Made by a program: the position numbers and the translations under genes
Shown: one piece after another, positions 32,159 through 51,926 of the stretch
How the letters are laid out: each line of letters starts with the position of its first letter
How positions within the stretch are numbered: position 1 is the stretch's first letter
NCBI GenBank assembly: GCA_903873715.1
Contig: CAIQPS010000137.1
Span: 1-52,224, forward strand
Direction of reading: 5' to 3'
Length of the DNA stretch: 52,224 nucleotides
Source: an uncultured Actinomycetes bacterium
GTDB lineage: Bacteria > Actinomycetota > Thermoleophilia > RBG-16-64-13
Notes under the pieces: model-generated
Seen by the model: only the letters and a program-made list of their open reading frames with translations
Told to the model about the DNA's origin: nothing
Databases searched by the model: none

Positions 32159-32959
32159 TCAGTCCTCGCCGACAGGCTCCTCCAGGGCCGGCTCTTCGAC
32201 GCCGTGCGAGGCACCGTGCGGGTGCAGTCCGGGCACGGAGACGTCTTTGGGCAACCGCAGGGTCGGCCGCTCCGCAGCCACGATCATCGCGTACTCGCGT
32301 GGGAACTCCTCCGCGTAGCGCTCGATCGGGACCTTGCCGGTGATCACCGACTTGTCGAACGGCATGGTGAGGCGCGAGAAGTGCGCGTAGTACATGTGGA
32401 CGAAGAGGATCCAGCCGATCGCCAGTATGGAGGCATCACTGTGGATCATGAGCGACAGGGGCACGGACCACCCGGGCAGGTGAGCGGTGGCGCCGATCGG
32501 GAACAGCAGGATGAGCCCGGTGACGATCATGGTCACGGCGCCGGGGTACACGACCCAGTAGGCCATCTTGTTCCGGTAGCTGTACCGGCCGAATTGCGGG
32601 TGCTTCTTGCTCAGCCGGAAGGTGTGCTTCATGTCGTCGATGAAGTCGACGATGTCCCGCGGCTTGGGGAACATCTCGGTGGAGAACGGGCGCCGGGTGA
32701 GGCTGTAGATGAGGTGATAGGCGCAGGTGGCGATCATCACCCATGCGGCCCAGTGATGGGCGATCCGGACGTTCTCAGGACCGTGCCAAATGGCCATCCA
32801 GAGCGCGCTGGCCTGCCAGTCGCTGAACTTCAGCGGGATGCCGGTTATGGAGAGTACGAAGAACGAGGTGATTATGAGGATGTGCTGCGCCCTCTGCTGG
32901 ACGTCGAACCGGGTGATCGAGACGTTGACCCTCGGCTCTTCTACGATGATGCGTCCCAT
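32159..32959 (-). CDS. Cytochrome b subunit, formate dehydrogenase gamma/Ni-Fe hydrogenase type (copy 2)
   Basis: The 266-residue membrane protein has four main helices with His in the places expected for two b haems: QHILIITSFF (helix 1), IAHHWAAW (helix 2), LMIHSDAS and HMYYAHFSR (last helix pair). The C-terminal tail is cytoplasmic and acidic. It should oxidise or reduce menaquinol and pass electrons to the heptahaem cytochrome encoded 3 bp upstream. It is a clear paralogue of the cytochrome b at 34087-34893. There is no dehydrogenase catalytic subunit in the operon, so the partner is the cytochrome c itself. Confidence 0.85.
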   Translation of the reverse strand: MGRIIVEEPRVNVSITRFDVQQRAQHILIITSFFVLSITGIPLKFSDWQASALWMAIWHGPENVRIAHHWAAWVMIATCAYHLIYSLTRRPFSTEMFPKPRDIVDFIDDMKHTFRLSKKHPQFGRYSYRNKMAYWVVYPGAVTMIVTGLILLFPIGATAHLPGWSVPLSLMIHSDASILAIGWILFVHMYYAHFSRLTMPFDKSVITGKVPIERYAEEFPREYAMIVAAERPTLRLPKDVSVPGLHPHGASHGVEEPALEEPVGED

Positions 32960-32962
32960 GAC

Positions 32963-34051
32963 CTACTCCTCACTACCCTTCTTGCCGCGCTTGAGCTTGC
33001 GCCGGATGTACGAACCGGAACGGATACTGACCGACGTGGCCACCGTGAGCAGACCGAACCCGAGCATGAAACGGCTGAAGTACTTGAAGCCCTTGCCGCC
33101 CCAATAGACCACGGGTTCGTCCTTGCTGTTGACGTCTTTGTGGCCCAGGAAGCCCGTCACGAACTCCGGGCCGGCCTCCGGGTGGCAACTCTTGCAGGTC
33201 GCGAGAAGGTCGTCGGTGCCGGAAGCAGAGCCGGCAGTGCCATCCCCTGTCGAGATCGTGTGGGTGTTGTGCGAGCCGTGGCAACTGACGCACGTCGCCG
33301 TGTCCAGTTGCTGAATGGAAGACTGGTCGGGGGACAGTTCGATCGATTTGCCGTGGAACGAGCGCATGTACGAGGAGTACACCCTCTCGACGATGCCGTA
33401 CTGCCCCATCAGTTGCGGGTTGTTGTGGCATTTGGCGCAGGTGGCGGCCACGTTCTTGGGATAGATGGAGGACTTGGGATCGAGCACCCGCTGGATGTTG
33501 TGCGGGCTCCCCGTCGGGCTGTGACAGTCGGTGCACGTGGCGGCGTCACTGTTGGTGGCGGACTGTATCTTGCCGTGGACGCTGTCCTTGTACTGCGCGT
33601 ACTCGTACTCGTGGCACGAACCGCATTTCGCGCTCAGAGAGATCTTGTTGAGCGGGCTTTTCTTGTCGTGCGGGTCGGCGGTATGGCACGAGGTGCAGTC
33701 CTTGTAGCGATGGACCGTGCCCGCCAGACCGGTGCGGTCCACGTACAGCACGATGGGAGACCCATCCGGCCGCTTGATGGTCATGAGACCTTCGAGAGAC
33801 TTGTCGCCGTGGCAGGAGAGGCAGTTCTTCTTGTCGGAGAACATCTTGGCCAGGTCCGGGTCCGGAGCCGGGCCCTTGTCGCGCCCCGGCGGTATCACCG
33901 AGGTGGTATCGGTGGTCGCGGCCTCGGCACTCGCTTTGCCGGCGAAGAGCCAGCCGCCCGAGACGACCACGACGGCAAGCGCCATCCCGACGAGAAGGAG
34001 CACCGCTCCACGGCGCCCCTTCGAACCACCTGACCTGTACCTCGATACCAT
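32963..34051 (-). CDS. Membrane-anchored heptahaem cytochrome c (copy 2)
   Basis: The 362-residue protein starts at ATG 34051 behind GGAGGGATC. It has an N-terminal signal-anchor helix (about 18-40) and a C-terminal membrane helix (YFSRFMLGFGLL region), with the haem domain between them outside the membrane. Seven CXXCH sites are present: CLSCH, CTSCH, CGSCH, CTDCH, CAKCH, CVSCH and CKSCH, with extra His (SVHGK, SFHGK) as likely axial ligands. With the adjacent cytochrome b it forms a quinol-linked electron exit module, comparable in logic to CbcL of Geobacter, where a multihaem domain and a b-type domain are one chain. It is a paralogue of the protein at 34898-36097. Confidence 0.9.
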   Translation of the reverse strand: MVSRYRSGGSKGRRGAVLLLVGMALAVVVVSGGWLFAGKASAEAATTDTTSVIPPGRDKGPAPDPDLAKMFSDKKNCLSCHGDKSLEGLMTIKRPDGSPIVLYVDRTGLAGTVHRYKDCTSCHTADPHDKKSPLNKISLSAKCGSCHEYEYAQYKDSVHGKIQSATNSDAATCTDCHSPTGSPHNIQRVLDPKSSIYPKNVAATCAKCHNNPQLMGQYGIVERVYSSYMRSFHGKSIELSPDQSSIQQLDTATCVSCHGSHNTHTISTGDGTAGSASGTDDLLATCKSCHPEAGPEFVTGFLGHKDVNSKDEPVVYWGGKGFKYFSRFMLGFGLLTVATSVSIRSGSYIRRKLKRGKKGSEE

Positions 34052-34086
34052 GATCCCTCCGGGCCTCGCAGGCCCCACGTTTCCCT

Positions 34087-34893
34087 CTAGGATTGCTCCG
34101 GCACCCGCGCCGGCATGAACACGGGCGACTCCGCCGGGGCGGGCGCCGCCGGCTTCTCCTCTGCTCCGGCATCGAGCGGCAGATTGGCCGCCGCCATGAT
34201 CTTCGCATACTCGAGCGGATGCTCTTCATGATAAAGGTGCATCGGCACCTTGCCGGTGAAGATGGACTTGTTCATGGGGAAGATGAGCGGGTGCAGGTGG
34301 GCGAAGTACATGTGGACGATGAGGATCCAGCCCACCGCCAGCACAGCTTCGTCACTGTGGGCGACCAACGCGAGCGGGATGATCCAACCGGGAAGTATCT
34401 TGGCTGCTCCGACGGGGTGCATCAGTATGAGGCCGCCCCCGACCATCATGACGAGACCCCAGCCGACCGCCCAATAATCGAACTTCTCGCGGTAGCTGAA
34501 CCGCCCGAACTGTACCTTCTGGTCTGAGAACCCCAGGTTGTATTTGAAGTCCTGGACGAGGTCCTTGACGTCCTGGATCCCGGGAAGCATGTCCTTGGGG
34601 AACGGGCGGCGCAGGACGATGATGTTCACGCCAAGATAGACCAGGTGATACACGAACGACGCCATCATGACGTACGCTGCGCCGTGGTGCACCGTCCGCA
34701 GGTTGGCGATGCCGCCCCAGACGTCCATCCACCACTGGCTGCTGGCCCATCCGGAGAACTTCATGGGCAACCCGGTTATGGCCAGCACGATGAACGAGGA
34801 GAACATCATGATGTGCTGGATGCGCTGATGGACATCGAACCGGCGGATGTATTTCCCGTCGATGCGCTCCGCTGAGGCTCCGGTCGTCGCCAT
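34087..34893 (-). CDS. Cytochrome b subunit, formate dehydrogenase gamma/Ni-Fe hydrogenase type (copy 1)
   Basis: The 268-residue protein aligns along its length with the cytochrome b at 32159-32959: FDVHQRIQHIMMFSSF, RTVHHGAAYVM, LVAHSDEAVLAVGWI and HMYFAHLHPL carry the probable haem-ligand His residues. The C-terminal Ala/Pro/Glu tail differs. It starts four bases after the stop of the heptahaem gene upstream, so the two subunits are co-translated. Role: quinone-side half of the first bc-like module. Confidence 0.85.
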   Translation of the reverse strand: MATTGASAERIDGKYIRRFDVHQRIQHIMMFSSFIVLAITGLPMKFSGWASSQWWMDVWGGIANLRTVHHGAAYVMMASFVYHLVYLGVNIIVLRRPFPKDMLPGIQDVKDLVQDFKYNLGFSDQKVQFGRFSYREKFDYWAVGWGLVMMVGGGLILMHPVGAAKILPGWIIPLALVAHSDEAVLAVGWILIVHMYFAHLHPLIFPMNKSIFTGKVPMHLYHEEHPLEYAKIMAAANLPLDAGAEEKPAAPAPAESPVFMPARVPEQS

Positions 34894-34897
34894 CGCG

Positions 34898-36097
34898 CTA
34901 CTCCTCCCGCTCCGGGGTCTGCGACGTGTCGTTCTCAGGGGCCGGCTCGCCGGCCTGATCGTGGGTCTTGGAATGCCGCTTGCCGCGCTTCTTGCCGCCC
35001 CTGAGCTTGTCCACTCCCCAGCGGCCGAAGGGGGTGATCACCAGGAGGACTCCCCCGGCCAGGGTGGCCCGGGTCAGTACATAGAAGAACTTCTCGCCCC
35101 AATAGACCTGGGGTATGTGATCGAGTTCAGCGCCCTTGTGGCCGAGGAAGCCGGACGCGAACCGCGTGCCGGCGCCGGGATGGCATTGCTCGCACGTCTT
35201 CGCGAGGTTCTCCATGCCGGCCACCGGGGCGTCGGGGTCGGTCACGGCCGCGATGTTGTGCGACCCGTGGCAGTTGATGCAGGTGGCCATGTTCAACTGC
35301 TGCAGACCGGTGTTGTCGTCCGAGAGGTTGATGGCCTTCCCGTGGAACGAGTTCATATAGCTGTCGTAGACCTTCTCCACGATGCCGTACTTGTTCATGA
35401 GCTTCGGGTCGTCGTGGCACTTGCCGCAGGTCTTCGCCACGTTCTTGGGATACGCCGACGAGTTGGGGTCGAGGACGCGCTCGATGTTGTGGGCGCTGCC
35501 CGTGGCGCTGTGGCAATCCGTGCACGTGGCCGGGTCGCTGTTGCCCTCCACCTGCGGCCTGCCGTGCACGCTGCTGATGTACTGGGTGTACTCGTACTTG
35601 TGGCACGTGCCGCATTTCTGAGCCTGCGAGAGCTTGGTGAACGGGCTGTCCGCTTCATGCGGCTTGGCGCCGTGGCAGGTCGTGCAATCGGTGAACCGGT
35701 GGATGGAGAACCGGAGTTGGGCCGGGTCGACGTAGAGCTCGACCATAGAGCCATCCGGGCGCTGCTTGGTCATGACCCCGCCGGCGTCGTGGTTGCCATG
35801 GCACGACAGGCAGTTGTTCTCGTCAACATAGGCGTGGGGCGCGCTCGGGTCGATCGGTATAGCCGGCGCCTGCTCGGGGGTGGTCGTGGTGGTGGTGACC
35901 GCGATGACCGGAGCGCCTGTGAGGTCGGTGACCGGGGTCGTGTCGGTCACCGCCGTGGTCGAAGGCGAAGTGCCCGTGTCCGCGCTCGCCGGCACCGTGT
36001 GGTACCAGGCGAAGAACCCGACGACGGCAAGCACACACGCGATCGCCGCGCACGCCACGGGCAGCGCCAGGCCGGCCTTGCGCACGGGCTTGAGCAC
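34898..36097 (-). CDS. Membrane-anchored heptahaem cytochrome c (copy 1)
   Basis: The 399-residue protein starts at GTG 36097, five bases after GGGAGG; the upstream TTG at 36112 overlaps that site. A membrane helix (about 10-32) is followed by a Thr/Pro-rich spacer of about 45 residues, longer than in copy 2. Seven CXXCH sites follow: CLSCH, CTTCH, CGTCH, CTDCH, CGKCH, CINCH and CEQCH. A C-terminal helix (ATLAGGVLLVITPF) and a basic then acidic tail end the chain. It is the first gene of a four-gene operon, and a CTAAGA repeat array lies just upstream of its promoter. The longer spacer would hold the haems further from the membrane than in copy 2. Confidence 0.9.
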   Translation of the reverse strand: MLKPVRKAGLALPVACAAIACVLAVVGFFAWYHTVPASADTGTSPSTTAVTDTTPVTDLTGAPVIAVTTTTTTPEQAPAIPIDPSAPHAYVDENNCLSCHGNHDAGGVMTKQRPDGSMVELYVDPAQLRFSIHRFTDCTTCHGAKPHEADSPFTKLSQAQKCGTCHKYEYTQYISSVHGRPQVEGNSDPATCTDCHSATGSAHNIERVLDPNSSAYPKNVAKTCGKCHDDPKLMNKYGIVEKVYDSYMNSFHGKAINLSDDNTGLQQLNMATCINCHGSHNIAAVTDPDAPVAGMENLAKTCEQCHPGAGTRFASGFLGHKGAELDHIPQVYWGEKFFYVLTRATLAGGVLLVITPFGRWGVDKLRGGKKRGKRHSKTHDQAGEPAPENDTSQTPEREE

Positions 36098-36140: not shown

Positions 36141-36167
36141 TGCTACGCGCGGCGGCCAAAGAAAGAG

Positions 36168-36207
36168 CTAAGAGCTAGGTACGGGCGGCTAAGGAATGCC
36201 TAAAAGA
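36168..36207. promoter_or_regulatory. CTAAGA direct-repeat array A (candidate response-regulator site)
   Basis: Three repeats, CTAAGA (36168), CTAAGG (36189) and CTAAAA (36200), are spaced 21 and 11 bp apart, so all lie on one face of the helix. The same words and the same spacing occur at 51927-51965. The array starts 28 bp upstream of the TATAAA box of the cytochrome operon. It also sits between that operon and the divergent kinase/regulator genes. A perfect hairpin (ACCCCGG and CCGGGGT) follows at 36207-36223. Confidence 0.65.
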
Positions 36208-36238
36208 CCCCGGAGACCGGGGTAACCGCCGCAGGACG

Positions 36239-36322: not shown

Positions 36323-39271
36323 GTGCCCCGGATCACCACCACAATAGGGCTTCAACTCCGGATCGTCGTCCTGGTGCTCGTGCTGATGACCGCGACCTTC
36401 GCTTTCATCGCGGTATGGGGCGGCCAGGCCAGGGACCGCGCGCGGGCCCAGATGGAAGAGCAACGGGGCGTCAGCGTGCAGCTGGCCGCGGCCCGTATCG
36501 ACGGCCTGGTCCGCCGCGACCTCTCGCAACTCCGAGCGATAGCCCAGACCCTGGCGGAAGTGCGCGGTGACCCCGCCGACACTCTCTGGACGGTACTCAC
36601 CACCGGCGGAACGGACCAGGCCTTCTTCTCCGGCGTCTTCCTGGCCGACGAATCGGGACGGTTCATCGCCGGCAGTTCCCCGCTCGCGGATGTGGAGAAG
36701 GGTTCCGTCCTCCCCCAGGCGGCGTTGCTCCAGTCGCTCGTACGCCGGGGTGGGACCGGCGTCAGTAGCGCGGTGCCTTTCGGCGCCGCCGGCGCGAAGT
36801 CGGTGCTCATGGCCGTGCCCGTCACGACGGACGACACTCAGCCGGGATCCATCCTCTTCGGTGTGGTGCCCTTGGCGGGTTCCGCCTTCGTGCAGACCAT
36901 CGAGCCGCTGGCGGTCGGCGAGACCGGGTACGCGGAGATCTTCGACAGTGCCGGGGTGCCCCTGGTGGACACGCCGCCGGAACGCGCGTTCGGCACCAGC
37001 GAACACGAGGCCCCTCTGGCATCGCTCCTCGCGACCGGGGAACCGGGCATCACCACCTGCGGCGGTTGCCACGCAGCCGATACCGCAGCACCAGGCCGGC
37101 AGGTGGTGATGAGCCAGCACGTGGTGGCGTTCGCACCCATCCCCGGCGCTCTGTGGGGCGTCGTCGCCGCTCAGTCTGAGAGCGAGATCACCGCACCTTT
37201 GAGAGAACTGCAATGGCCCTTGGTCGCTGGGGCCATCGTGCTCTTCCTGTTCGCCTTCGTGTTCGCGTGGCTGGCGGGGCGCAACGTCGTCAAGCCGCTG
37301 AATCGCCTGATGGTCGCGTGCGAAGGCATCGCCGGGGGCGACATGGAGCGCCCGGTCCCCGCCGTGGGGGTCGGTGAGATACGCCGTCTGGCCCATGCGT
37401 TCGAGACGGTGCGCGACCGGCTCTCCGCCGCCCTGTCCGAGGTGGTCTCGTGGAACGTGGTCCTCGAAGAACGGGTGCAGGAGAAGACCGAGGACCTGAG
37501 CCGCACCGTCCACGAGCTCCAGGAATCCGCCGAAGAGGTGCTGCTGCGCAACCAGGAGCTCCAGGCGCTCAACGAAGTACTGCTCGCAGCGGGCGAATCG
37601 CTCGATCTGCAGACCGTGCTCCGCTTGGTCTCCCGGTCGCTCGCCGATCTCTTCAAGGCCGACGGGGTGACCATCCTGGTGACCCACCAGGAAGGAGAGA
37701 CCTTCTGGCATTCGGGCATGGACCTGCCCGAATCCTCCCTGCGGGACGTGCTCGACCACGTCTCTCCCGACGCCGATGGGCACGAGCGCGCCCCCGACCC
37801 CATGTTCGTAGCGGACTTGAGAGCGGAGGACGATCCCGCTTATGCAGTCCTGGCGGATGCGGGCGTGGGTTCTCTGGCCCTGGTGCTGCTCCGTTTCCGC
37901 GAGCGCCCCGTGGCCTCTCTCGCACTGGCGTTCAAGAAACGGCGGACCTTCGCTTCCCGCGACCTGGAACTGCTCGGGTCGATAGGCAGCCCGCTGGCGC
38001 TCGCCATCGACAGGACCCTCCTCTACCGCGGCCAGCAGCGGGCGGCCGCCCGCGCCTCGGCCCTCTTGGGCATCGCGACCGAGATCTCCACCCTGCAGAG
38101 TCTGGACCACGTGCTGGAGCACATAGTGGACGAGGCCGCCACCCTGCTCGGGATGGACCGCGCCCGACTCGTGCTGTTCCGCGAGGACGGCCTGGAGACC
38201 ACCGTGAGCGTCTCCGAGGGCACCCGCACCGTGCGGGTAACCGAGGGCCAACCGTCACGGTCGCAGGAGTTGGGCGGTATGGCCATCGACACCGGTGCTC
38301 CCGTCTGGACGGCGGATTACACCACGGATACCCGGCTCGACGAAGGGGCCCGGGCAGCGGCACGCAAGGACGGCGTCCGCTCCGGCATCGCGGTCCCGCT
38401 CCAGGTGGGCGACCGCGCCATCGGGGCGCTCTATGTCGGCAGCGCGTCCCCCAACCAGTTCCAGGAGGAGGACGTCTCCCTCCTCCAGGGCTTCGCGAGC
38501 CACGCGGCCATCGCCATCGAGAACGCGCGCCTGTTCTCGGAGGCCGCCAAGGTGGAGGCGCTCCGTGAACTGGATGCCCTGCGCTCCCACCTGGTCTCCA
38601 CCGTGTCCCACGAACTGCGGACGCCCCTGGCCGGCATCAAGGCCTACGCCACAGCCCTCCTCAGGACGGACGTCAAACGCAGCGAACGCCAGCAGCGCGA
38701 GTATCTTACGGCCATAGACCAGGACTGCGACCGGCTGACGGAGCTTGTAGAGGAGTCGCTCGACATGTCGCGCATCAAGGCCGGGATGTCGGGGATCGAG
38801 CGCGAAGCCCTGTCACCCAAGACAATGATCGAGCGGGCAGTGGCCGCCATCAGGCCAGTCGCCCGTGGCCGCACGCTGGGGTACGAAGCGGACGCGTCCC
38901 TCCCCGACGTGTGGGCGGACTCGGCGCGCATGCAGCAGGTCCTCGGCAACCTCATGCAGAACGCGCTCAACTTCTCCAAGCCCCCTTCCCCGGTCACGGT
39001 CTCGGCTCAACTGGCCGGCGACGAGATCCTGTTCAGCGTGAGCGACTACGGCATCGGGATACAGTCGGACGAGCAGGAGCGCATCTTCGAGCCCTTCTAC
39101 CGGGGCGGGAACGGCGGCGGTTCGGTCCGGCCGAGAGGGACCGGGTTGGGGCTCGCCATCAGCAAAGGGCTCGTGGAGGCCCATGGAGGCCGCATCTGGG
39201 TGGAGAGCGAGAGCGGGAGCGGGAGCACATTCTGGTTCACGCTCCCGGTGTACCACCCGGGGAAAGGATAG
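36323..39271 (+). CDS. Sensor histidine kinase with an extracytoplasmic haem c motif
   Basis: The 982-residue protein starts at GTG 36323 after GAGGGA. Layout: membrane helix 1 (about 8-30), an outside sensor domain with a CGGCH haem c site (Cys246, Cys249, His250), membrane helix 2 (about 298-319), HAMP, a coiled coil, GAF 1 (about 415-565), GAF 2 (about 580-735), HisKA with His763 in SHELRTPL, and an ATPase domain with DYGIGI and GTGLGLAIS. A covalently bound haem would let it sense redox state, O2, NO or electron flow outside the cell. The response regulator starts 3 bp after its stop. It lies between cytochrome genes and the haem-attachment operon, which its haem would need. Confidence 0.9.
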   Translation: MPRITTTIGLQLRIVVLVLVLMTATFAFIAVWGGQARDRARAQMEEQRGVSVQLAAARIDGLVRRDLSQLRAIAQTLAEVRGDPADTLWTVLTTGGTDQAFFSGVFLADESGRFIAGSSPLADVEKGSVLPQAALLQSLVRRGGTGVSSAVPFGAAGAKSVLMAVPVTTDDTQPGSILFGVVPLAGSAFVQTIEPLAVGETGYAEIFDSAGVPLVDTPPERAFGTSEHEAPLASLLATGEPGITTCGGCHAADTAAPGRQVVMSQHVVAFAPIPGALWGVVAAQSESEITAPLRELQWPLVAGAIVLFLFAFVFAWLAGRNVVKPLNRLMVACEGIAGGDMERPVPAVGVGEIRRLAHAFETVRDRLSAALSEVVSWNVVLEERVQEKTEDLSRTVHELQESAEEVLLRNQELQALNEVLLAAGESLDLQTVLRLVSRSLADLFKADGVTILVTHQEGETFWHSGMDLPESSLRDVLDHVSPDADGHERAPDPMFVADLRAEDDPAYAVLADAGVGSLALVLLRFRERPVASLALAFKKRRTFASRDLELLGSIGSPLALAIDRTLLYRGQQRAAARASALLGIATEISTLQSLDHVLEHIVDEAATLLGMDRARLVLFREDGLETTVSVSEGTRTVRVTEGQPSRSQELGGMAIDTGAPVWTADYTTDTRLDEGARAAARKDGVRSGIAVPLQVGDRAIGALYVGSASPNQFQEEDVSLLQGFASHAAIAIENARLFSEAAKVEALRELDALRSHLVSTVSHELRTPLAGIKAYATALLRTDVKRSERQQREYLTAIDQDCDRLTELVEESLDMSRIKAGMSGIEREALSPKTMIERAVAAIRPVARGRTLGYEADASLPDVWADSARMQQVLGNLMQNALNFSKPPSPVTVSAQLAGDEILFSVSDYGIGIQSDEQERIFEPFYRGGNGGGSVRPRGTGLGLAISKGLVEAHGGRIWVESESGSGSTFWFTLPVYHPGKG

Positions 39272-39274
39272 TCC

Positions 39275-39976
39275 GTGCACCAAGGTCACATCCTCGTCGT
39301 CGACGACGAGCCGCGCCTGCTCTCGTTCCTACGGAGCGAGCTCAAAGCGAGCGGGTACCAGGTGAGCGTCGCCAACGACGGCAAGAGCGCGCTGAAAGCG
39401 GCAGGGGCCCGGGGCCCGGACCTCGTGATCCTCGACGTCGGTCTACCCGACATGGACGGCTTCGAGGTCTGCCGCAGACTGCGGGAGACCTCCAGCGTGC
39501 CGATCCTCATGCTGACGGCCCGGGCAGGCGACACCGACAAGGTCACCGGGCTCGACTCGGGGGCCGACGACTACCTGACCAAGCCCTTCAGCACCCCGGA
39601 GCTGGTGGCCCGCGTCCGGGCCCTGTTGCGCAGGGTGCGCACCGCCGACACGGAAGGCCCCGGCGCCGAGTTCCGCTGTGGGGACTTCGTCATCGACTAC
39701 CAGCGCCGCAAGGTGGAGATCCGGGGTGAGGAGGTGCGCCTCAGCGCCACGGAGTTCAAGCTCCTCGAAGAACTGTGCCGCAACGCCGGCCGGGTGATGC
39801 TCCGCGAGGAACTACTGGCCCGCGTGTGGGGCAGTAGCTATCGGAAAGAGGTCCAGTACGTCTGGGTCTACATAGGATACCTGCGGAACAAGCTCGAGCA
39901 GGATCCCAAGCATCCCGAGTACATCCTCACCTACCCCGGGGTGGGCTACAGTTTCCGCTCTCCGGACGCCTGCTAG
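39275..39976 (+). CDS. OmpR-family response regulator
   Basis: The 233-residue protein starts at GTG 39275 behind GGAAAGGA. The receiver domain (1-118) has the acidic pair D10/D11, phospho-acceptor D54, the T in MLTARAG and K in LTKPF. The C-terminal winged helix (about 135-230) has the OmpR signature LSATEFKLLEEL and GYLRNKLEQDP. It is the direct partner of the upstream kinase. OmpR-type regulators bind direct repeats spaced by about one helical turn, which matches the CTAAGA arrays at 36168 and 51927. Those cytochrome operons are its likely targets, but this is inference. Confidence 0.92.
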   Translation: MHQGHILVVDDEPRLLSFLRSELKASGYQVSVANDGKSALKAAGARGPDLVILDVGLPDMDGFEVCRRLRETSSVPILMLTARAGDTDKVTGLDSGADDYLTKPFSTPELVARVRALLRRVRTADTEGPGAEFRCGDFVIDYQRRKVEIRGEEVRLSATEFKLLEELCRNAGRVMLREELLARVWGSSYRKEVQYVWVYIGYLRNKLEQDPKHPEYILTYPGVGYSFRSPDAC

Positions 39977-40024: not shown

Positions 40025-40110
40025 TTTCTTAGTCATATTTTATGGTAGCCTCCACACTGTCGATGTAACATACCCTGACCATTCAGCAAGCGCATGTCCG
40101 GAGGCGGTTG

Positions 40111-40506
40111 ATGAGCTCCCGAGCAATCAAGATAACGGTGGGCGCCGTGGTCGTCGCGGTCGCCGTGGGTGTACTCATCTGGGTGGCGGTCGGCAGAGGT
40201 TCGGTGACCTACTACACGGTCTCCGAGCTCATCGCCAAAGGCCCAGTCCAGCAGATCAGCGTGTCGGGCGAGTTGACCGGCGGCACCGTGCAGGGCTTGG
40301 GCACGACCTCGCTCAAGTTCGTCATGCACGACCGCGACAACCCCGACCGCACCATCTCGGTCACATACAGCGGCGTGATCCCCGACAGCTTCAAAGACCA
40401 GGCGGACGCCGAGGTAGTCGCCCAGGGTGACTTCGCGGCGGGCCAGACCCTCACAGCCACTCAGATCGAAGCCAAATGCCCGAGTAAATACGAAGCTGCC
40501 AAGTGA
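40111..40506 (+). CDS. ccmE: Cytochrome c maturation haem chaperone CcmE, Cys type
   Basis: The 131-residue protein starts at ATG 40111, seven bases after GGAGG. It has one N-terminal membrane helix (about 7-27) and the CcmE beta-barrel, including ISVSGEL and VTYSGVIPDSFKD. The usual haem-binding His motif near the C-terminus is replaced by C123-x3-Y127 (CPSKY). The same Cys type is known from Desulfovibrio and archaea, in Ccm systems that lack CcmG and CcmH. It carries haem covalently outside the membrane and hands it to CcmF. It is first in a six-gene operon and overlaps ccmF by four bases. Confidence 0.93.
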   Translation: MSSRAIKITVGAVVVAVAVGVLIWVAVGRGSVTYYTVSELIAKGPVQQISVSGELTGGTVQGLGTTSLKFVMHDRDNPDRTISVTYSGVIPDSFKDQADAEVVAQGDFAAGQTLTATQIEAKCPSKYEAAK

Positions 40507-42521
40507 ACGCGTTCGGCCATGTCCTCCTGATCCTCATCGTCTTCGCCTGCATCGCAGGCCTCGGCTTGGCCTTGTCGAGCGCGGCTTCGCGGAACCGGGG
40601 GGCCGGCGCCACGAAGTGGGTGATGGTCGCCGTATATGCGGTCGCCACCCTCACCATAGTGGCCTCCATCACCCTCCTGGTGCAGCTCGCCACCCGGGAC
40701 TTCGGCAACCTCTACGTGTCCGAGTACACCAACCGGGCGCTGAGCATGGCCTACACCCTGTCGGCCTTCTGGGCGGGCAATGCCGGATCCCTACTGCTGT
40801 GGCTGCTCATCCTGTCCATCTTCTCGCTGATCATCATGCGCCAGATGCGCAGGGAAGCTCCCGACGCGGCGCCCTGGGTGGCCGCAATAATCCTGGCCAT
40901 AAGCCTGTTCTTCTCGCTGCTGCTCATCTTCGGGAACAAATCCAACCCGTTCGAGGGGCAGCCCGGGGGCCTCACGCCGCCCGACGGCCAGGGCCTCAAC
41001 CCCATCCTGCACAACCCGGGCATGGTCATCCATCCCGTCGCGCTCTATCTGGGCTATGTGGGATGCGCCATACCGTTCGCGGTCGCGTTCGGCGCGCTCA
41101 TCGCCCGTAGCCCCAGCGCCTCGTGGCTACCGGCCCTCAGGCGCTGGGCCCTCATCGGCTGGTTCTTCCTGACCATCGGCAACATCGTCGGCGCCTGGTG
41201 GGCGTACGTCACCCTCGGCTGGGGCGGCTATTGGGGCTGGGACCCGGTGGAGAACGCCTCGCTCATGCCGTGGCTCACGGGTGCGGCGGTGGTCCACGCG
41301 ATAGTCATGCTGCGCAAGCGCAAGTTGCTCCGGATGTTCACGGTCATCATGGTGGCCATCACGTTCATGCTCACCATCTTCGGCACCTTCCTCACCCGTT
41401 CCGGCATCGCCACGTCGGTCCACGCGTTCTCCGACAACACCTTCATCCCGTGGTTCACCACCTTCCTGATCATCGCCGCGGTGTTCTTCATCGCGGTCCT
41501 GGTGATCCGCCGTGGGGAGTTGCGCGCGGAGAAGCGGATGGAGAGCTGGCTCACCCGCGAAGCCGCCTTCCTCTACACCAACATCCTGCTGGCGCTGCTG
41601 GCCTTCGTGGTATTCATGGGGGTCCTCTACCCCACGATCCAGAAGGCCGTATCCGGCGCTCAGGTGGGCCTGAACACCCAGTACTTCTCGTCCACCACCG
41701 TGCCGCTGGCCCTCATCCTGATGCTGCTCACGGCGATCTGCCCGTTGCTGCCCTGGAAAGGCAGCGACCCCAGGCAGCTTAAGATCGACGCTTTGTGGAC
41801 GGTCACCCCAGCGGTCATCGCGTTGATCGTCGTGGTGGTCCTGGGGGTGCACAAGCCGTACGCCGTCATCAGCTTCACGCTGGCGACGTTCGCCTTCGCC
41901 TCGGTGGTCCTCCAGTATGCCCGGGGGCTCCGCAACCGCCACAAGGCCACGAGCAGTAACTGGCTGCGCTCTCTCGGCGGCATGATCTGGACCAACCGGT
42001 CGCGCTACGGCGGCTTCATCGTGCACGCCGGCCTCATCATCGTTTTGGTGGGCATCACAGGGTCTTACACCTTCAAACAGGTGATCGACACCGACGTCAC
42101 CAAAGGCCAGACGCTCGCCCTCGGGAGCTACGTGCTCACCTACGAGGGCCTGGACATCACGAGCGACGCTGAGAAGACCAACGCCAAGGCGACCTTCGCC
42201 GTGAGCCATGGCGGCAAACCGGTGGGGTTCGTCTACCCGGTCCGCGAATACTACCCGGCCACCGATCAGAACTGGACCCGGGTGGACCTCTACAGCACGG
42301 CCACGGTCGACGTCTACATCTCCCTGCTGGGATACTCAGATGATGGGACCTCTGCCACCATCCAGGCCCAGCTGAACCCCCTGGTGAGCTGGCTGTGGGT
42401 CGGCGGCGGGATCATGGCACTGGGCGGGATCATAGCGATGTGGCCCACCCGGCGGTCCAGGCCGAAAGGGGCTCAGGACGCGGCGCCGGCACGGGCCTCT
42501 TCGCCAAGAGGCGGCAGGTGA
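40503..42521 (+). CDS. ccmF: Cytochrome c haem lyase CcmF
   Basis: The 672-residue protein starts at GTG 40503 inside the ccmE stop (GTGA). It has about 14-15 membrane helices and the tryptophan-rich haem-handling signature WGGYWGWDPVENASLMPWL in the middle. Two outer His segments (NPGMVIHPVALYLGY and the GFIVHAGLII region) are the probable haem ligands. CcmF takes haem from CcmE and joins it to CXXCH. With no CcmH/CcmG gene in the operon, CcmF here must work without the usual partners or with ones encoded elsewhere. Its own stop overlaps the ccmA start. Confidence 0.95.
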   Translation: MNAFGHVLLILIVFACIAGLGLALSSAASRNRGAGATKWVMVAVYAVATLTIVASITLLVQLATRDFGNLYVSEYTNRALSMAYTLSAFWAGNAGSLLLWLLILSIFSLIIMRQMRREAPDAAPWVAAIILAISLFFSLLLIFGNKSNPFEGQPGGLTPPDGQGLNPILHNPGMVIHPVALYLGYVGCAIPFAVAFGALIARSPSASWLPALRRWALIGWFFLTIGNIVGAWWAYVTLGWGGYWGWDPVENASLMPWLTGAAVVHAIVMLRKRKLLRMFTVIMVAITFMLTIFGTFLTRSGIATSVHAFSDNTFIPWFTTFLIIAAVFFIAVLVIRRGELRAEKRMESWLTREAAFLYTNILLALLAFVVFMGVLYPTIQKAVSGAQVGLNTQYFSSTTVPLALILMLLTAICPLLPWKGSDPRQLKIDALWTVTPAVIALIVVVVLGVHKPYAVISFTLATFAFASVVLQYARGLRNRHKATSSNWLRSLGGMIWTNRSRYGGFIVHAGLIIVLVGITGSYTFKQVIDTDVTKGQTLALGSYVLTYEGLDITSDAEKTNAKATFAVSHGGKPVGFVYPVREYYPATDQNWTRVDLYSTATVDVYISLLGYSDDGTSATIQAQLNPLVSWLWVGGGIMALGGIIAMWPTRRSRPKGAQDAAPARASSPRGGR

Positions 42522-43306
42522 CGACCAGGGGCGCAGAATCCGAGGTGGCCGGGTCCGCTGAGTCCCTCGAGGCTCCCACCGTCGCGGCCGCCGTGCTGGT
42601 GCGCAACCTTCGCAAGGATTACGGCCATCACGAAGCGCTGCGCGGGGTCGACCTGAGGCTGGACCCCGGTACCTTCCTCACGATCTTCGGCCCCAACGGG
42701 GCCGGTAAGACCACCTTCATGAAAGTGCTGTCCACTCTCACCCGGCCTACAGAGGGCATCGTCCACGTGGGCGGCAAAGACGTGGTCAAAGACGCGCCCG
42801 AAGTCCGCAAGCGCGTCGGAGTGATCTCCCACAACACGTACCTCTACGCGCAACTGACCGGCCTCGAGAACCTCGAGTTCTATGCCGGCATGTACCGCGT
42901 CCCTAACGGCCGGCAGCGCGCGCTGTCGCTGCTCAAGCGGATGGATCTCTTCACCCGCATGGACGATCGCGTGGGAGGCTACTCGAGGGGCATGCAGCAG
43001 CGGCTCTCGGTGGCCCGCGCACTCCTGCACGATCCCGAGTTGCTGCTCCTGGACGAGCCGTACACCGGCCTGGACCAGCACGCCAGCCGCGTGCTGGCCG
43101 AAGTCCTGCAGGGTCTGCGGGACGGCACGCGCACGGTGATCATGACCACTCACAACATCCAAGAGGGCCTCAGCGGCTGCGACAGGGTGGCTATCCTGGT
43201 AGAAGGCCAGTTCGTTTACGACCGCCGCGTCGCCGACATCGACACCTCGAGCTTCCAGCACACCTACTTCACCTGTGTGCACGAAGAGCTTCCGGAAGAG
43301 GACTGA
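42518..43306 (+). CDS. ccmA: Haem exporter/CcmE-release ABC ATPase CcmA
   Basis: The 262-residue protein starts at GTG 42518, overlapping the ccmF stop (GTGA) behind AAGAGGCGG. Walker A is GPNGAGKTT (58-66), the ABC signature YSRGMQQRLSVARAL, and Walker B LLLLDEPYTG. The N-terminal extension of about 25 residues is longer than usual for CcmA. It powers release of haem-loaded CcmE together with CcmB and CcmC. The length and partner genes separate it from other ABC ATPases. Confidence 0.92.
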   Translation: MTTRGAESEVAGSAESLEAPTVAAAVLVRNLRKDYGHHEALRGVDLRLDPGTFLTIFGPNGAGKTTFMKVLSTLTRPTEGIVHVGGKDVVKDAPEVRKRVGVISHNTYLYAQLTGLENLEFYAGMYRVPNGRQRALSLLKRMDLFTRMDDRVGGYSRGMQQRLSVARALLHDPELLLLDEPYTGLDQHASRVLAEVLQGLRDGTRTVIMTTHNIQEGLSGCDRVAILVEGQFVYDRRVADIDTSSFQHTYFTCVHEELPEED

Positions 43307-43333
43307 CATGTACGCGGCCGGACGAGGCATACG

Positions 43334-44011
43334 ATGAGCTTCTTCTCCCAGGCGTGGGCGATCGTCCGCAAGGACCTCGTCACCGAACTCCGGGGCGCCA
43401 GCACAATCGTCTCGATGGTGCTGCTGGGCCTGCTCGTGGTCCTGGTGTTCAACTTCGGCGTGGAGCCCGGCACCGCCAGCGCCTCGTTGGCGCGCTCCGG
43501 CGTACTGTGGTCGGCGTTCCTCTTCTCGGGCGTCATCGCGGTGGGCCGCTCCTTCGCGTCCGAGAAGGAAGCGGGCTGCATGGACGGCCTGCTGCTGTGC
43601 CCGGTGGACCGCGGGGTCATCTACCTGGGCAAGCTCATCGGCAACCTCATCCTGGTGTTCGCCACCGGGCTCATCATCCTGCTGTTCTGGACCGCCATCT
43701 ACAACGTGGGCATCGGCGGCGCCTGGTTCGGCCTGCTGCTCCTGTTGGTGCTGGCCACCATCGGCATGTCCACCCTGGGCACGCTGTTCGCTGCCGTGGC
43801 GGCCGGTGTCCGTGCCCGCGACGCACTGCTGACCGTGTTCATCTTCCCCCTGCTGATCCCGTTGGTCATAGGGGCGGCCCACATGTCCACGATGCTGCTG
43901 AGCGGCAAGACGCTCGGCGAGGCAGGCATGTGGCCCTGGATCCTCGTCGTGTACGACGTGGTCTTTCTCGCTGTGTCTTTCATGGTCTTCGACTTCGTAG
44001 TGGAGGATTAG
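43334..44011 (+). CDS. ccmB: Haem exporter membrane protein CcmB
   Basis: The 225-residue protein has six membrane helices and the CcmB pattern: an N-terminal amphipathic start (AWAIVRKDLVTELR), FSGVIAVGRSFASEKEAG, and a helix-5 segment FIFPLLIPLVIGA. ATG 43334 follows GAGG by six bases. It forms the membrane part of the CcmAB ABC complex, which with CcmC releases haem-loaded CcmE. It sits 27 bp after ccmA and one base before ccmC. Confidence 0.93.
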   Translation: MSFFSQAWAIVRKDLVTELRGASTIVSMVLLGLLVVLVFNFGVEPGTASASLARSGVLWSAFLFSGVIAVGRSFASEKEAGCMDGLLLCPVDRGVIYLGKLIGNLILVFATGLIILLFWTAIYNVGIGGAWFGLLLLLVLATIGMSTLGTLFAAVAAGVRARDALLTVFIFPLLIPLVIGAAHMSTMLLSGKTLGEAGMWPWILVVYDVVFLAVSFMVFDFVVED

Positions 44012-44012
44012 T

Positions 44013-44735
44013 ATGGGTGATCGAAAGTCACGCATGGATCTCTGGGTCAACGTCGTCGGCACCGTGACGTTCGTGCTCGTGATGGCGGGGATATTGCTGG
44101 CGCTCCTCTACGCTCCCACCGAGAAGACCCTGGGTGACAGCCAGCGCATCTTCTACCTGCACATGCCGATGGCGTGGATCGCGTTGGGCCCCGGCTTCAC
44201 GGTGGTGTTCGCGCTCAGCATCGCGTACCTGGTCACCGGCAAGATGAAGTTCGACCGCTGGGCCAGCGCGTCCGCCGAGATCGGCGTCATCTTCACCACC
44301 ATCACCCTGCTTACGGGCTCCCTGTGGGGCAAGCAGGAATGGGGCGTCTACTGGGACTGGGAACCCCGGCTCACCACCACCCTGGTGCTCTGGTTCATCT
44401 ACGTCGGCTACTTGCTGCTCCGCGCCATCGCCGGAGAAGGGCCGCGCCGCGCCCGTCTCTCTGCCGTGTACGGCATCGTGGGCTGGGTGGACGTCCCCAT
44501 CGTGTTCCTATCCATCTGGCTCTGGCGCACCCTGCTCCATCCGAAGATCCTGTCCGCACGTGGGTTCGCCATGGACTCGCGCATGATCTTGGCCCTTATG
44601 GTGTGCCTGGTGGCCATCACCTTCCTGTACCTGTGGCTTCTCATGGTCCGGGCGCGCACCCGGACCCTCGAATCCGAAATATCCGGACTGCGGGCGCAGC
44701 TGCGCCGGCGCAACCGCCGAGGAGGCAATCAATGA
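44013..44735 (+). CDS. ccmC: Haem-handling protein CcmC
   Basis: The 240-residue protein has six membrane helices and the tryptophan-rich signature WGVYWDWEPRLT. Its two outer His segments are YLHMPMAW after helix 1 and the RTLLHPKIL loop. It loads haem onto CcmE. The C-terminal tail is longer and more basic than in Proteobacteria. ATG 44013 follows GGAGGATTAGT. The stop overlaps the start of the small gene at 44732 (ATGA). Confidence 0.93.
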   Translation: MGDRKSRMDLWVNVVGTVTFVLVMAGILLALLYAPTEKTLGDSQRIFYLHMPMAWIALGPGFTVVFALSIAYLVTGKMKFDRWASASAEIGVIFTTITLLTGSLWGKQEWGVYWDWEPRLTTTLVLWFIYVGYLLLRAIAGEGPRRARLSAVYGIVGWVDVPIVFLSIWLWRTLLHPKILSARGFAMDSRMILALMVCLVAITFLYLWLLMVRARTRTLESEISGLRAQLRRRNRRGGNQ

Positions 44736-45119: not shown

Positions 45120-46277
45120 TCACGGCTGCTCGTGACAGTTCGTGCACAGCTTCGACATATCCATGGTGTTGAGGAAGTGAACGCCTCCACTCGTGGCGTC
45201 GCCTGCACCATGGGGAGCGTGGCACGACTCGCACTCGACCACGGACGTCCCGTCGGTGAGTGCCGGGGACCGCGGCTTGGCGGAGACCATCCACCCCGTC
45301 GTCTGGCTGAACACCCTCGTGCCTTGGTAGTCGCCGGAGGCCGGTAGGTAGTACTGGTCGGCCGGCCAGACGGACGGATATCTGGAGACCTTGCCCGGCA
45401 CGGGAGTGGTGGCCACGATCGGCGTGCTCGAGGTGGTCACAAGGACGTAGGTCCCGGTCTCGGCGTCGTAGGTGTACGTACCCGGGTTCGTCGTGTCCCA
45501 GATCATCTTGCCACTGTTCCAGGCGACACCCATCCCAGAACCTTGGTATACCGAATGCACGGCACGGCTCCCGACAGCGCCTGCCGCCACTGTGGCCGTC
45601 GTGGCATCGGGAAGCGCGCTCTCGTGGCAAGTGGCGCACACGTTGCCGCCCTTGATGAGGCGCGACCACCGATAGAGGGTCTTCGAACCGTGCGTGCCGT
45701 CATCGACCTTGACGAGGTCGCCCGTCTGGTCGTAGGTCTCGGTCTTGAACTCCGGCCTGAGGAAGTTCCAGTACGAGTTATCGTGCGGGTCGTGGCAGCG
45801 GTCGCAGTCCTGCCCGGGGCCGACCGGCGTCGAAGACCCCTCGGGCACGTAGCTGGCCGCCGTGGTCCGGTGGTTGAAGTGGCCGTTCTGAGAGAAGACC
45901 GTCATGCTGCCGATGACCAGAAGGCTACCGGTGCCGAACACCTGGGTTCCGTCATGGCAGCTGTAGCAGAGGGGCATGATGTCGGACGAGTACTGTCCGG
46001 GATCGCCGGCATCCATGTTCGTCCCGTCGACGCCGCCGCCGCCCATCTCACTGGGAGAGCGCGCCCACAGGAACGCTCCCTCGGCGCCGTGGGGGACGTG
46101 GCAGGACTCGCACGGGTTGCCCTCGGACGACACATCGTGCTTGCTACCCGTGATCATCGAATGGTCGGCCGTGTGGGTCGTGAAGTCATACGACGCCAAG
46201 GCGGTACCGGCGAAGATCACGAGCCCAACGACGAACACCGTCGCCGCGATGCCCAGGTGAACGATCCGCCTACTCAC
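45120..46277 (-). CDS. Secreted hexahaem cytochrome c (copy B)
   Basis: The 385-residue protein starts at GTG 46277, five bases after GAGGGGGA and overlapping the stop of the gene upstream (GTGA). A signal peptide (about 1-29, ending ALA) leads to a mature start, SYDFTTHTADHSM, nearly identical in form to the paralogue at 50454-51638. Six CXXCH sites occur: CESCH, CYSCH, CDRCH, CATCH, CESCH and CTNCH. The paired forms CESCHVPHG and CDRCHDPHD belong to the doubled-CXXCH family. No membrane anchor is present, so it is released or assembled outside. Haem number and size are close to OmcS, the filament-forming cytochrome of Geobacter, but homology is not shown. Confidence 0.9.
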   Translation of the reverse strand: MSRRIVHLGIAATVFVVGLVIFAGTALASYDFTTHTADHSMITGSKHDVSSEGNPCESCHVPHGAEGAFLWARSPSEMGGGGVDGTNMDAGDPGQYSSDIMPLCYSCHDGTQVFGTGSLLVIGSMTVFSQNGHFNHRTTAASYVPEGSSTPVGPGQDCDRCHDPHDNSYWNFLRPEFKTETYDQTGDLVKVDDGTHGSKTLYRWSRLIKGGNVCATCHESALPDATTATVAAGAVGSRAVHSVYQGSGMGVAWNSGKMIWDTTNPGTYTYDAETGTYVLVTTSSTPIVATTPVPGKVSRYPSVWPADQYYLPASGDYQGTRVFSQTTGWMVSAKPRSPALTDGTSVVECESCHAPHGAGDATSGGVHFLNTMDMSKLCTNCHEQP

Positions 46278-49172: not shown

Positions 49173-50282
49173 CTATTCGGCGGTGGTGGTCGTGTTGCCG
49201 CCGGTGGTCCCGGCCGGCTGAGTGGTCGGCAGGGCGAACTCGAAGATCCCGTTGAAGCGGTCGACGACGTAAAGCGTGTTGTTGACCACCTTCATGCCGT
49301 GAGGCGCCCGGAAGACGGACAGCGAATTGGGGTCGGCAGGATCCTTGCGGCCGAGGAAACCGACCCAGGCACCCTCGGCATTGAACACGTCGACCGCGGC
49401 CATGAGACCGTCGCTGACGTACACGTTCCCGAGGTCGTCGACGGCCACGGACTTGGGACGGGCGAGATCGCCCACCCGGTCGCCGGCCTGGCCGAACGTC
49501 AGCAGCTGCTTGCCGTCAGGAGAGAACTTCTTGACCATGCAGTTTAGGCTGTCCACGACGTAGACCATGCCGTCCTTGTCGATCGAGATCCCCACCGGGC
49601 CGTTGAAACCTTTGTCAGCCGCGGCGCGAGCGCCGGTGCCTACCGTCCAGATGACCTGTCCGTCCGCGGTGTACTTGGTGAACCTCTGATTGGCACCATC
49701 ACTCACGTACATCGACCCGTCACTCGCGACGGCGAGTCCCACGGGCCTGAGGTCCTTGGCGTCGCTTGCGGCACCCTTGGCAAGTTTGATCTCCTTGACG
49801 ACGGCCCCTGAGGTGGTGACGACCAGCACCCCGCCCCCGCCGGTGTCCAGTAGATAGATCTGGCCTTGATAGCTGGAGATCGCCATGGGGCCAGAAGCAG
49901 TGAACTTGGGGTCGACGGTCTTGTCGAACACCTTGAAGGTCTTACCGTCGGCGCTCACTTGCACTATGCGGCCGCCGGTAGGATCTGCAAGGTACATGGT
50001 GCCGTCGATGATGGTGATGTCGGCCGGCTGATCGGCCGTCTTGCCTTCGATGGGGACGGCTAGAGAGAGCGGGGCGGGCCAAACGGTGTTGGTGATCTCC
50101 CGTCCCTCCTGGGTGTCATCCTGGCCGATGACGGGGCCCGGGTCCTGCACCGTGGTGGTGACGGGTCCCGCGGTCTGTTCATTGCCGCGCGTGACGAGAA
50201 GGACGACTATCACTGCCACCAAGGCGATCACGAGCAAGGCGGCCCCCGCCGTGAGGAGGTACCTACGCCGCCTGGATTCCAT
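49173..50282 (-). CDS. Membrane-anchored NHL-repeat beta-propeller protein
   Basis: The 369-residue protein starts at ATG 50282 behind AAGGAG; a GTG 27 bases upstream is less likely. A membrane helix (about 8-30) is followed by a Thr/Asp spacer and an outside beta-propeller of about six NHL repeats. Typical units are PVGLAVASDGSMYVSDGANQR, PVGISIDKDGMVYVVDS and PKSVAVDDLGNVYVSDG. The C-terminus is a short Thr/Gly tail. NHL propellers are binding scaffolds, and I recall them near multihaem cytochromes in other metal-reducing bacteria. It is followed after 10 bp by the cytochrome-hydrolase fusion, so it probably holds that assembly together at the membrane face. Confidence 0.88.
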   Translation of the reverse strand: MESRRRRYLLTAGAALLVIALVAVIVVLLVTRGNEQTAGPVTTTVQDPGPVIGQDDTQEGREITNTVWPAPLSLAVPIEGKTADQPADITIIDGTMYLADPTGGRIVQVSADGKTFKVFDKTVDPKFTASGPMAISSYQGQIYLLDTGGGGVLVVTTSGAVVKEIKLAKGAASDAKDLRPVGLAVASDGSMYVSDGANQRFTKYTADGQVIWTVGTGARAAADKGFNGPVGISIDKDGMVYVVDSLNCMVKKFSPDGKQLLTFGQAGDRVGDLARPKSVAVDDLGNVYVSDGLMAAVDVFNAEGAWVGFLGRKDPADPNSLSVFRAPHGMKVVNNTLYVVDRFNGIFEFALPTTQPAGTTGGNTTTTAE

Positions 50283-50346
50283 CGAGACTCCTTCTGTCCG
50301 CCCGCTCACCGGGCCGCTTTGTCACTTTGCCCTGTCGGATTATTGG

Positions 50347-50453: not shown

Positions 50454-51638
50454 TTAATGGCAGTTGCCGCAGAACGTGGCATCGTCCATCGTGTTGAGGA
50501 AGTGGTAGCCGCTGGCCACACCGTCGAGGGCGCCGTGCGGAGTATGGCACGACTCGCACATGACGTAGGCGGTGGCGCTGCGGGTGCCACCCTCAGCCGT
50601 GGAAGCGCCGGTCACGACGCCCGCCGAGGTGAAGAGACGCGTGCCGTCGCGGTCAGCACCAGCGGTGCCTTCCGGATCGAATGCGCCGGCCTTCGGCCAA
50701 ATCGAGGCGGTGGGGTTCGCGCCCGGGTTCGGCATCTTGGCGGTGATGGAGACCGAAGAAACGTACTTGATGTAGACGTTCTTGTTCGCGATGTCGGAGA
50801 TGTCGACATCACTGATGCTCATGGTCGAGGTGCTCCAGGTCAGTTTCCCATCCGGCACGAGAGTGCTCGGGAATTTGTCCGGGGCAGAACCGATCATGCC
50901 GGAGTCGTACTGGCCGGCGGCCTGGTACACGGGGTGCACCTTGCGATACGTGGTGGCCGTCTTGCTGACGAAGTTGGACTCGTGGCAAGTCGCGCAGAAG
51001 TCGCCGCCTTTGATGATGGGCGACCAGCGGCGCAGAGTGTAGCTCTGCGAGCTGCTGTTATAGACCGTGTTGTCGCCGGTGGCGCTGTAGTAAACGACCG
51101 CGCTACCGTCGGCCTTGACCTTGATGTAGTTGCCGGCCTCGTCGTACACACGGGTCTTGTATTCCGGCAGCAGGAACTTGCCGTAGGAGTCGTCATGCGG
51201 GTTGTGGCAACGGTCGCAGTCGCTACCGGTGCTGCCCGTGACGCTCGCCGCTTTGGTGCGGTGGGTGAAGTGATCCTTCGCGAACGCGGTGTAGTCACCA
51301 ACGTCGGTGGTGGTGCCGTCATGGCAGCTGTAGCAGAGCGGTTTGATATCGGAGCTCATGCCGCTGTCGGCGTTGGTCGTGTCGACCACGCCAGAGTAAC
51401 CGGTCACCGTGCTCAGGGTCTTCGCCCACAGGAACGCGCCGGTACCACCATGCGGGGTATGGCACGACTCGCAGGGGTTCCCTCCGGACGACAGGTCGTG
51501 ATCACTCGAAGTGACCATGCCGTGGTCGACCGTATGGGTGGAGAAGTTGTAGCTTGCCAGCGCGGTGCCGGCGAACGCCATCAGGACGATGACGAAGACC
51601 AGAACCAGAACGCTAGTAAAAGCAATCTTCTTACTCAC
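50454..51638 (-). CDS. Secreted hexahaem cytochrome c (copy A)
   Basis: The 394-residue protein starts at GTG 51638, eight bases after GGAGG. The signal peptide (about 1-28, ending ALA) and mature start (SYNFSTHTVDHGM) match copy B at 45120-46277. The six sites, CESCH, CYSCH, CDRCH, CATCH, CESCH and CGNCH, come in the same order and with similar loops, so the two arose by duplication. The chain ends exactly at the last His of CGNCH, whereas copy B has three more residues. It is the first gene of the operon and lies behind a long leader and CTAAGA array B. Role: extracellular electron carrier or building block of a cytochrome polymer (inferred). Confidence 0.9.
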   Translation of the reverse strand: MSKKIAFTSVLVLVFVIVLMAFAGTALASYNFSTHTVDHGMVTSSDHDLSSGGNPCESCHTPHGGTGAFLWAKTLSTVTGYSGVVDTTNADSGMSSDIKPLCYSCHDGTTTDVGDYTAFAKDHFTHRTKAASVTGSTGSDCDRCHNPHDDSYGKFLLPEYKTRVYDEAGNYIKVKADGSAVVYYSATGDNTVYNSSSQSYTLRRWSPIIKGGDFCATCHESNFVSKTATTYRKVHPVYQAAGQYDSGMIGSAPDKFPSTLVPDGKLTWSTSTMSISDVDISDIANKNVYIKYVSSVSITAKMPNPGANPTASIWPKAGAFDPEGTAGADRDGTRLFTSAGVVTGASTAEGGTRSATAYVMCESCHTPHGALDGVASGYHFLNTMDDATFCGNCH

Positions 51639-51845
51639 TATTTTTGCCTCCTTCCAAGCCTTAATCGTAGTGAGTGGGATCAACGGAACACCACATTGAT
51701 GTGGCTGGCGCGGATCGTTGCAGACAGTCCGAGGGCCCGTTCTGGTCGCCGTAAGAACTTCTACCGGCGGAACCGGGAAACAGAGCCGCGCGCCTCGACT
51801 CGGACACGGACTATCTCTGCCCCTCACCCCCCTTCGTTAATCTAT

Positions 51846-51872: not shown

Positions 51873-51926
51873 GTTCGGGCGTAGTTGGTCGCCGCAAACT
51901 TTACCCGTAGAGGCCCACAAAATGGG

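Follow-up and report, generated by a model that had tools for sequence, protein, structure and literature searches.

Tandem-repeat arrays before multihaem cytochrome operons of an uncultured Actinomycetes bacterium: a probable two-box operator of the OmpR/PhoB family

The two multihaem cytochrome operons of the window (the whole stretch of 52,224 nucleotides that was analysed) are each preceded by an array of short direct repeats. We propose, with a probability of about 0.78, that these arrays are operators of the OmpR/PhoB family through which the response regulator encoded at 39275, under the sensor kinase encoded at 36323-39271, would activate multihaem cytochromes as one regulon. The motif and the regulon are new; the operator class and the mechanism are already known. 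To our knowledge, how multihaem cytochromes are controlled at the transcriptional level is known in only a few organisms, and a literature search revealed no description of an OmpR/PhoB-type operator before multihaem cytochrome operons. The set made up of regulator, motif and regulon is concrete and falsifiable, and in vitro work on it is possible without growing the organism. Below, G000 is the genome holding the window, G010 that of a relative from the same family and another genus, and C denotes a contig.

Both cytochrome operons lie on the minus strand, and the plus-strand stretch between them encodes the histidine kinase, the OmpR/PhoB-type regulator and haem-export genes. The features are as follows.

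32159-32959, minus strand: operon 1 gene 4, cytochrome b561-like subunit (70% G010 orthologue)
32963-34078, minus strand: operon 1 gene 3, multihaem cytochrome, 7 CXXCH (59% orthologue at G010:C62:41789-43006, behind its own array)
34087-34893, minus strand: operon 1 gene 2, cytochrome b561 / formate-dehydrogenase-gamma-like membrane subunit (PF01292; NF007924 below cut-off; 75% G010 orthologue)
34898-36097, minus strand: operon 1 gene 1, multihaem c-type cytochrome, 7 CXXCH (GTG start at 36097 read from the sequence, GGGAGG at 36108-36103)
36145-36140, minus strand: putative -10-like TAGCAT of operon 1, offset 60 from the array start (alternative TATAAA at 36140-36135); no -35
36157-36205, minus strand: candidate operator array of operon 1 (TTTTAG 36205-36200, CCTTAG 36194-36189, TCTTAG 36173-36168, TCTTTG 36162-36157)
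36323-39271, plus strand: sensor histidine kinase (TM, dCache, HAMP, 2 GAF, HisKA, HATPase)
39275-39976, plus strand: OmpR/PhoB-family response regulator, proposed binder of the arrays (PF00072 + PF00486; 84% G010 orthologue beside arrays)
40108-44735, plus strand: System I haem-export set (ccmE, ccmF, a ccmA-like ABC-ATPase, ccmB, ccmC-like), between both cytochrome operons
45120-46319, minus strand: operon 2 gene 4, multihaem (paired-CXXCH) cytochrome, 6 CXXCH
46274-49162, minus strand: operon 2 gene 3, M23 peptidase and SLT_3 lysozyme-like domains in one CXXCH-bearing protein
49173-50309, minus strand: operon 2 gene 2, NHL-repeat beta-propeller (49% homologue, same place in G010)
50454-51827, minus strand: operon 2 gene 1, multihaem cytochrome (paired CXXCH, 6 CXXCH; ORF coordinates)
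51903-51898, minus strand: putative -10-like TAAAGT of operon 2, offset 61 from the array start; no -35
51916-51964, minus strand: candidate operator array of operon 2 (TCTTAG 51964-51959, TCTTAG 51953-51948, TCTTAG 51932-51927, TTTGTG 51921-51916)
52074-52224, minus strand: 3' end of a NapC/NrfH-like gene with 7 CXXCH, continuing on C166

Operon 2 gene 1 itself probably starts near 51638, where a signal peptide (VSKKIAF...) is encoded, and the product of operon 2 gene 3 might open the cell wall for cytochromes. The haem-export set was not seen beside the G010 cluster.

The anatomy of the arrays, their uniqueness, their conservation across genera and their co-occurrence are matters of direct observation. 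The original prediction had placed three repeated words before each operon, at 36168/36189/36200 and 51927/51948/51959, with an identical spacing of 21 + 11, and this was borne out: read on the plus strand, the words are CTAAGA, CTAAGG and CTAAAA before operon 1, and CTAAGA, exact at all three positions, before operon 2. The sense of both arrays is the minus strand, as is that of the cytochrome operons, which gives TCTTAG-N5-YCTTAG-N15-TCTTAG. While the three repeats are real, their description as a three-repeat array was incomplete, a weaker fourth half-site lying 11 bp further on. Indeed, alignment of the four full arrays from the two genomes places TCTTAG at offset 0, YCTTAG at 11, TCTTAG at 32 and a degenerate TCTTTG at 43; the unit therefore consists of two tandem-repeat boxes, each made of two 6-bp half-sites arranged head-to-tail with an 11-bp pitch, the boxes being 32 bp (three turns) apart. 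The fourth half-site is TCTTTG in the operon 1 array and in both G010 arrays, and the degenerate TTTGTG in the operon 2 array; a 1-mismatch pair search independently recovered the second boxes of the former three. The head-to-tail pitch of about 11 bp characteristic of OmpR/PhoB-family operators was found at 0/11 and 32/43 in the four arrays, and at 0/11 in two single-box sites described below. The consensus reads TCTTAG-N5-YCTTAG, with 32 bp from box to box and a -10 at 60. Note that a terminator-like hairpin (CCCCGG-TCT-CCGGGG-TCTTTT, window 36206-36225, minus strand) abuts the operon 1 array and runs into its first repeat; the other arrays have no such hairpin.

All four full arrays are followed by a TAnnnT hexamer at offset 60/61: TAGCAT and TAAAGT in the window, TAAAGT and TACAGT (both at offset 60) in G010. 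No -35 was found at these four promoters. A -10-like hexamer without a good -35, as originally predicted, is thus present at both window arrays, with the distance revised to 22-23 bp after the third repeat on the minus strand, which corresponds to 11-12 bp past the fourth half-site. With these predicted -10s, the four full arrays show the layout of a class II (pho-box-like) promoter, in which a box takes the place of the -35 and the -10 lies about 10-12 bp downstream; this arrangement is described for PhoB and has also been suggested for the PhoP protein of M. tuberculosis (PMC3413638). The downstream box, ending 11-12 bp before the -10, would replace the missing -35, so that the bound dimer would recruit RNA polymerase via sigma region 4 (class II activation). 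A second dimer would sit on the upstream box, which lies 32 bp away on the same helical face, and would have a stabilizing or strengthening role.

The position of the downstream box over the -35 region would also suit steric repression, with the bound regulator blocking RNA polymerase and the kinase relieving the block. We consider a repressor site quite improbable, since the missing -35 at all four promoters fits an activator-dependent promoter and the box placement is the known activating class II arrangement of PhoB-type regulators (PMC3413638). Hardly any credence can be given to the idea that the element acts as RNA, in a leader or terminator, rather than as DNA: the hairpin visible just upstream of the operon 1 array does overlap the first repeat, but it is missing from the other three arrays, the repeats are direct and not inverted, and the array lies upstream of the -10.

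The arrays are rare. A genome-wide scan had been set beforehand as a refutation test for the prediction, and its matches fell solely before cytochrome operons: with up to three mismatches, the whole G000 genome (3.33 Mb, 169 contigs) yielded two arrays only, one before each of them. The reversed-pattern control gave 0 matches in the same genome, and no array with up to three mismatches arose in 100 dinucleotide shuffles of the window, as compared with two in the real sequence. When up to one mismatch was allowed, 399 genomes of the class contained two arrays each in G000 and G010 and one each in three others, while in 396 genomes of the phylum (a sample without G010) the other arrays amounted to 2 single matches only; the isolated matches in these other genomes were taken as chance. 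The pair pattern YTTAG-N5-YCTTAG had five matches in G000, three of them before multihaem genes, and three in G010, 3/3 before multihaem genes; the matches before multihaem genes are not fully mutually independent, because all lie within one cluster. As to the single-box pattern alone, it was neither rarer nor commoner than its reversed control, and it is its location, not its number, that is telling.

Conservation is confined to the half-sites. Across all six pairwise comparisons of the four arrays, 20/24 to 24/24 half-site positions were identical, whereas the flanks were at background in the same comparisons (14-21/60 for the 60 bp upstream and 20-28/81 for the 81 bp downstream). The operon 1 half-sites, for instance, showed 23/24 identity with each G010 array, with flanks at background. 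This comparison bears on whether the likeness of the arrays could stem from a recent duplication of operons 1 and 2, or of their promoters, instead of selection, as might be suggested by the multihaem cytochromes of related Pfam families present in both operons. The flanks of the two window arrays match at 19/60 and 24/81 positions, i.e. at chance level, with likeness confined to the half-sites, and the arrays are conserved in another genus where the flanks are randomized too; the flank comparison refutes a recent duplication, to which we attach next to no probability.

Weight matrices built from one genome recognized the boxes of the other. With a matrix derived from five G010 boxes only, the four window boxes ranked 1-4 in 52 kb (15.4-26.2 bits, the next score being 9.9), and a further box on C166 (see below) scored 25.9 bits. 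Reciprocally, a matrix derived from five G000 boxes only placed the five G010 boxes at ranks 1-5 in 43 kb (21.4-25.8 bits; next 14.2). We also scored the two-box grammar, counting the half-sites only. In the window, with the G010 half-site matrix, the operon 1 array came first (40.1 bits) and the operon 2 array second (35.5 bits), the best non-array register reaching 17.6 bits; G010 gave 41.9 bits twice, followed by 15.0, and the best score across 1.27 Mb of unrelated loci was 27.5 bits.

The context of the arrays is conserved as well. In G010, counterparts of the regulator (84% identity), of the kinase (64%) and of the cytochrome/b-type pairs (59-75%) sit together with a homologue of operon 2 on a single 52.9-kb contig. 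Two perfect arrays occur there, each preceding a multihaem cytochrome gene orthologous to one of the window, and the operon 2 homologue has a single box before it, just past the regulator gene. Operon 1 of G010 is split by the insertion of a PAS kinase with a regulator of the LuxR/NarL type (G010:C62:39573-41383), and the cut-off half has its own full array, which argues that each cytochrome transcription unit needs an array.

At E values of at most 1e-70, close orthologues of the regulator were confined to 2/399 genomes of the class, G000 and G010, the same two in which cytochrome-promoter arrays were found. Similarly, the only orthologue of the kinase sensor among the 399 genomes was in G010 (59%), the two other matches being at 25-26%. 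Only two genomes are positive, so the motif is tied to the regulator by nearness and joint presence, a co-occurrence just as tight as that of the cytochrome genes; it is consistent with the link and is not a proof of it. The prediction that an OmpR-type regulator at 39275, under a haem kinase, drives both operons thus gains comparative support, the 36323/39275 pair being the sole regulators that stay with the arrays in the second genus.

We next consider whether the arrays, while being OmpR/PhoB-type operators, could be bound by another member of the family, or by several members sharing the site, such as an OmpR-type paralogue or the NarL-type pair of G010. The motif is assigned to the regulator by context, and G000 carries at least 8 further regulators of the OmpR/PhoB family. 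These are, however, at most 46% identical to the 39275 regulator and encoded on other contigs, and arrays are absent from 16 relatives possessing other OmpR-type paralogues. The NarL-type pair is missing from the window cluster and has a different DNA-binding type, and the 36323/39275 pair is the only one common to both clusters. Another binder is therefore rather unlikely in our opinion, and we retain the 39275 regulator as the most likely binder.

This protein has the receiver and winged-helix domains of an OmpR/PhoB-family regulator and is encoded by the arrays' own system. Among its closest relatives in the PDB are KdpE and the M. tuberculosis proteins RegX3 and MtrA. The E. coli KdpE operator at kdpFABC, TTTATA-N5-TTTACA, consists of 6-bp direct repeats, one per regulator monomer (PMC3264566). 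The boxes described here share with it the 6-bp half-sites and the N5 spacing, and the expectation that an OmpR-type regulator would act from direct repeats one turn apart fits this half-site-N5-half-site geometry, KdpE being among the closest solved relatives. By contrast, the half-site is TCTTAG, there are two boxes instead of one, the targets are multihaem cytochromes and the kinase has a dCache sensor. Of the contact residues of KdpE, R200 and T215 have R and T as their counterparts in the 39275 regulator, whereas R193 is replaced by W, a change that is consistent with a different half-site sequence. The protein does not fall within the KdpE regulon: it scored 206 with the NCBIfam KdpE model, against a cut-off of 325, and its proposed targets are cytochromes. 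None of the 25 best-scoring models reached its own cut-off with the regulator, and a contig scan of named relatives gave general OmpR-type relatives only, at most 53% identical.

A second point of comparison is provided by the PhoB and PhoP sites, in which the 11-bp pitch is made of a 7-bp motif and a 4-bp spacer (PMC4832192). The arrays have the 11-bp pitch and the multiple repeats in common with the PhoB pho box and the M. tuberculosis PhoP repeats, and they would share the tandem dimers, the cooperative use of the repeats and a box that can replace the -35; by contrast, the motif and the regulon differ, and the boxes are 32 bp apart instead of forming contiguous repeats. Given the half-site spacing of KdpE and PhoB/PhoP, the closest solved relatives and the class II arrangement, we interpret the array as a pair of sites at which dimers of the 39275 regulator would bind. 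By analogy with KdpE and PhoB, each box, a pair of half-sites repeated at 11 bp, would hold one regulator dimer.

We infer binding by the regulator, activation rather than repression, phosphorylation and the nature of the signal. The kinase, the dCache domain of which bears a predicted haem c motif (CXXCH), would phosphorylate the 39275 regulator, and the pair would couple a redox or ligand signal at the putative dCache haem, NO being a possible ligand, to cytochrome expression. The CXXCH motif occupies residues 246-250, in the extracytoplasmic dCache region between TM1 and TM2/HAMP, and is retained in G010 within an otherwise variable stretch, as would be expected of a c-type haem sensor kinase. 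An AlphaFold2 model of the sensor, computed from two sequences, had a mean pLDDT of 41, too low for any structural reading.

The sensor is reminiscent of the sCache_heme family (DUF3365/PF11845), in which a Cache-type extracytoplasmic sensor with CXXCH in an insertion is fused to a histidine kinase; according to a preprint, this family is rare or absent in several Terrabacteria phyla (PMC12889525). The two have in common a Cache-type extracytoplasmic domain with a CXXCH insert on a histidine kinase. However, the sensor region of the kinase matched the dCache_1 profile (PF02743), with a score below the gathering score, and gave no match with the PF11845 (DUF3365/Tll0287) profile, which places it outside the sCache_heme family. 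A distant dCache homologue encoded on G000:C17 has no CXXCH insert, and the insert is possibly a gain of haem c separate from that family. A sensor of this kind may monitor the condition of the very electron-transfer chain that it controls. More tentatively, and with the odds rather against it, a dCache sensor with an independently gained cytochrome-like CXXCH loop might read how reduced or oxidized the extracytoplasmic cytochrome pool is, and set the dose of the same cytochromes via the two-box operator, in a closed feedback loop. If true, multihaem electron export would be under redox feedback here, in a lineage for which no regulator of this kind has been described.

The targets would comprise the cytochromes on the quinol side (operon 1), those on the outer or wall side (operon 2) and, via a single upstream box, the NapC/NrfH-like cytochrome. 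The latter gene runs across the right-hand end of the window: bases 1-141 of C166 overlap exactly with window positions 52084-52224, and C166 therefore continues the window rightward. A divergent cytochrome-NHL operon is also found on C166, as is the beginning of another NapC/NrfH-like copy. The C166 box, TCTTAGCCGTTTCTTAG (C166 2107-2091), lies between the NapC/NrfH-like gene and the divergent operon, pointing at the former, upstream of a good promoter (TTGACA-N17-TATACA). The class II model is inapplicable at this site because of the good -35/-10 below the box. This site and the operon 2 site of G010 have one clear box each, at other distances to the -10, and class II activation is proposed for the full arrays, not for single-box sites.

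No box scoring more than 14 bits was found at the other multihaem loci of G000 (C65, C27) or at the second cytochrome set of G010 (C136); the regulon therefore appears to be limited to the array cluster. Two further candidates were rejected. The box-like TCTTAGTCATATTTTAT (window 40027-40043, plus strand), in the gap between the regulator gene and ccmE, scored 11.8 bits, below all true boxes, and is followed by a -10-like hexamer at a different distance. The exact box TCTTAGCGGCGTCTTAG (G000:C112:34103-34119) is isolated, with neither a second box nor a -10, and points away from the next gene; it was taken as chance. Its neighbour is an ArsR-like gene preceding an HdrA-like sequence.
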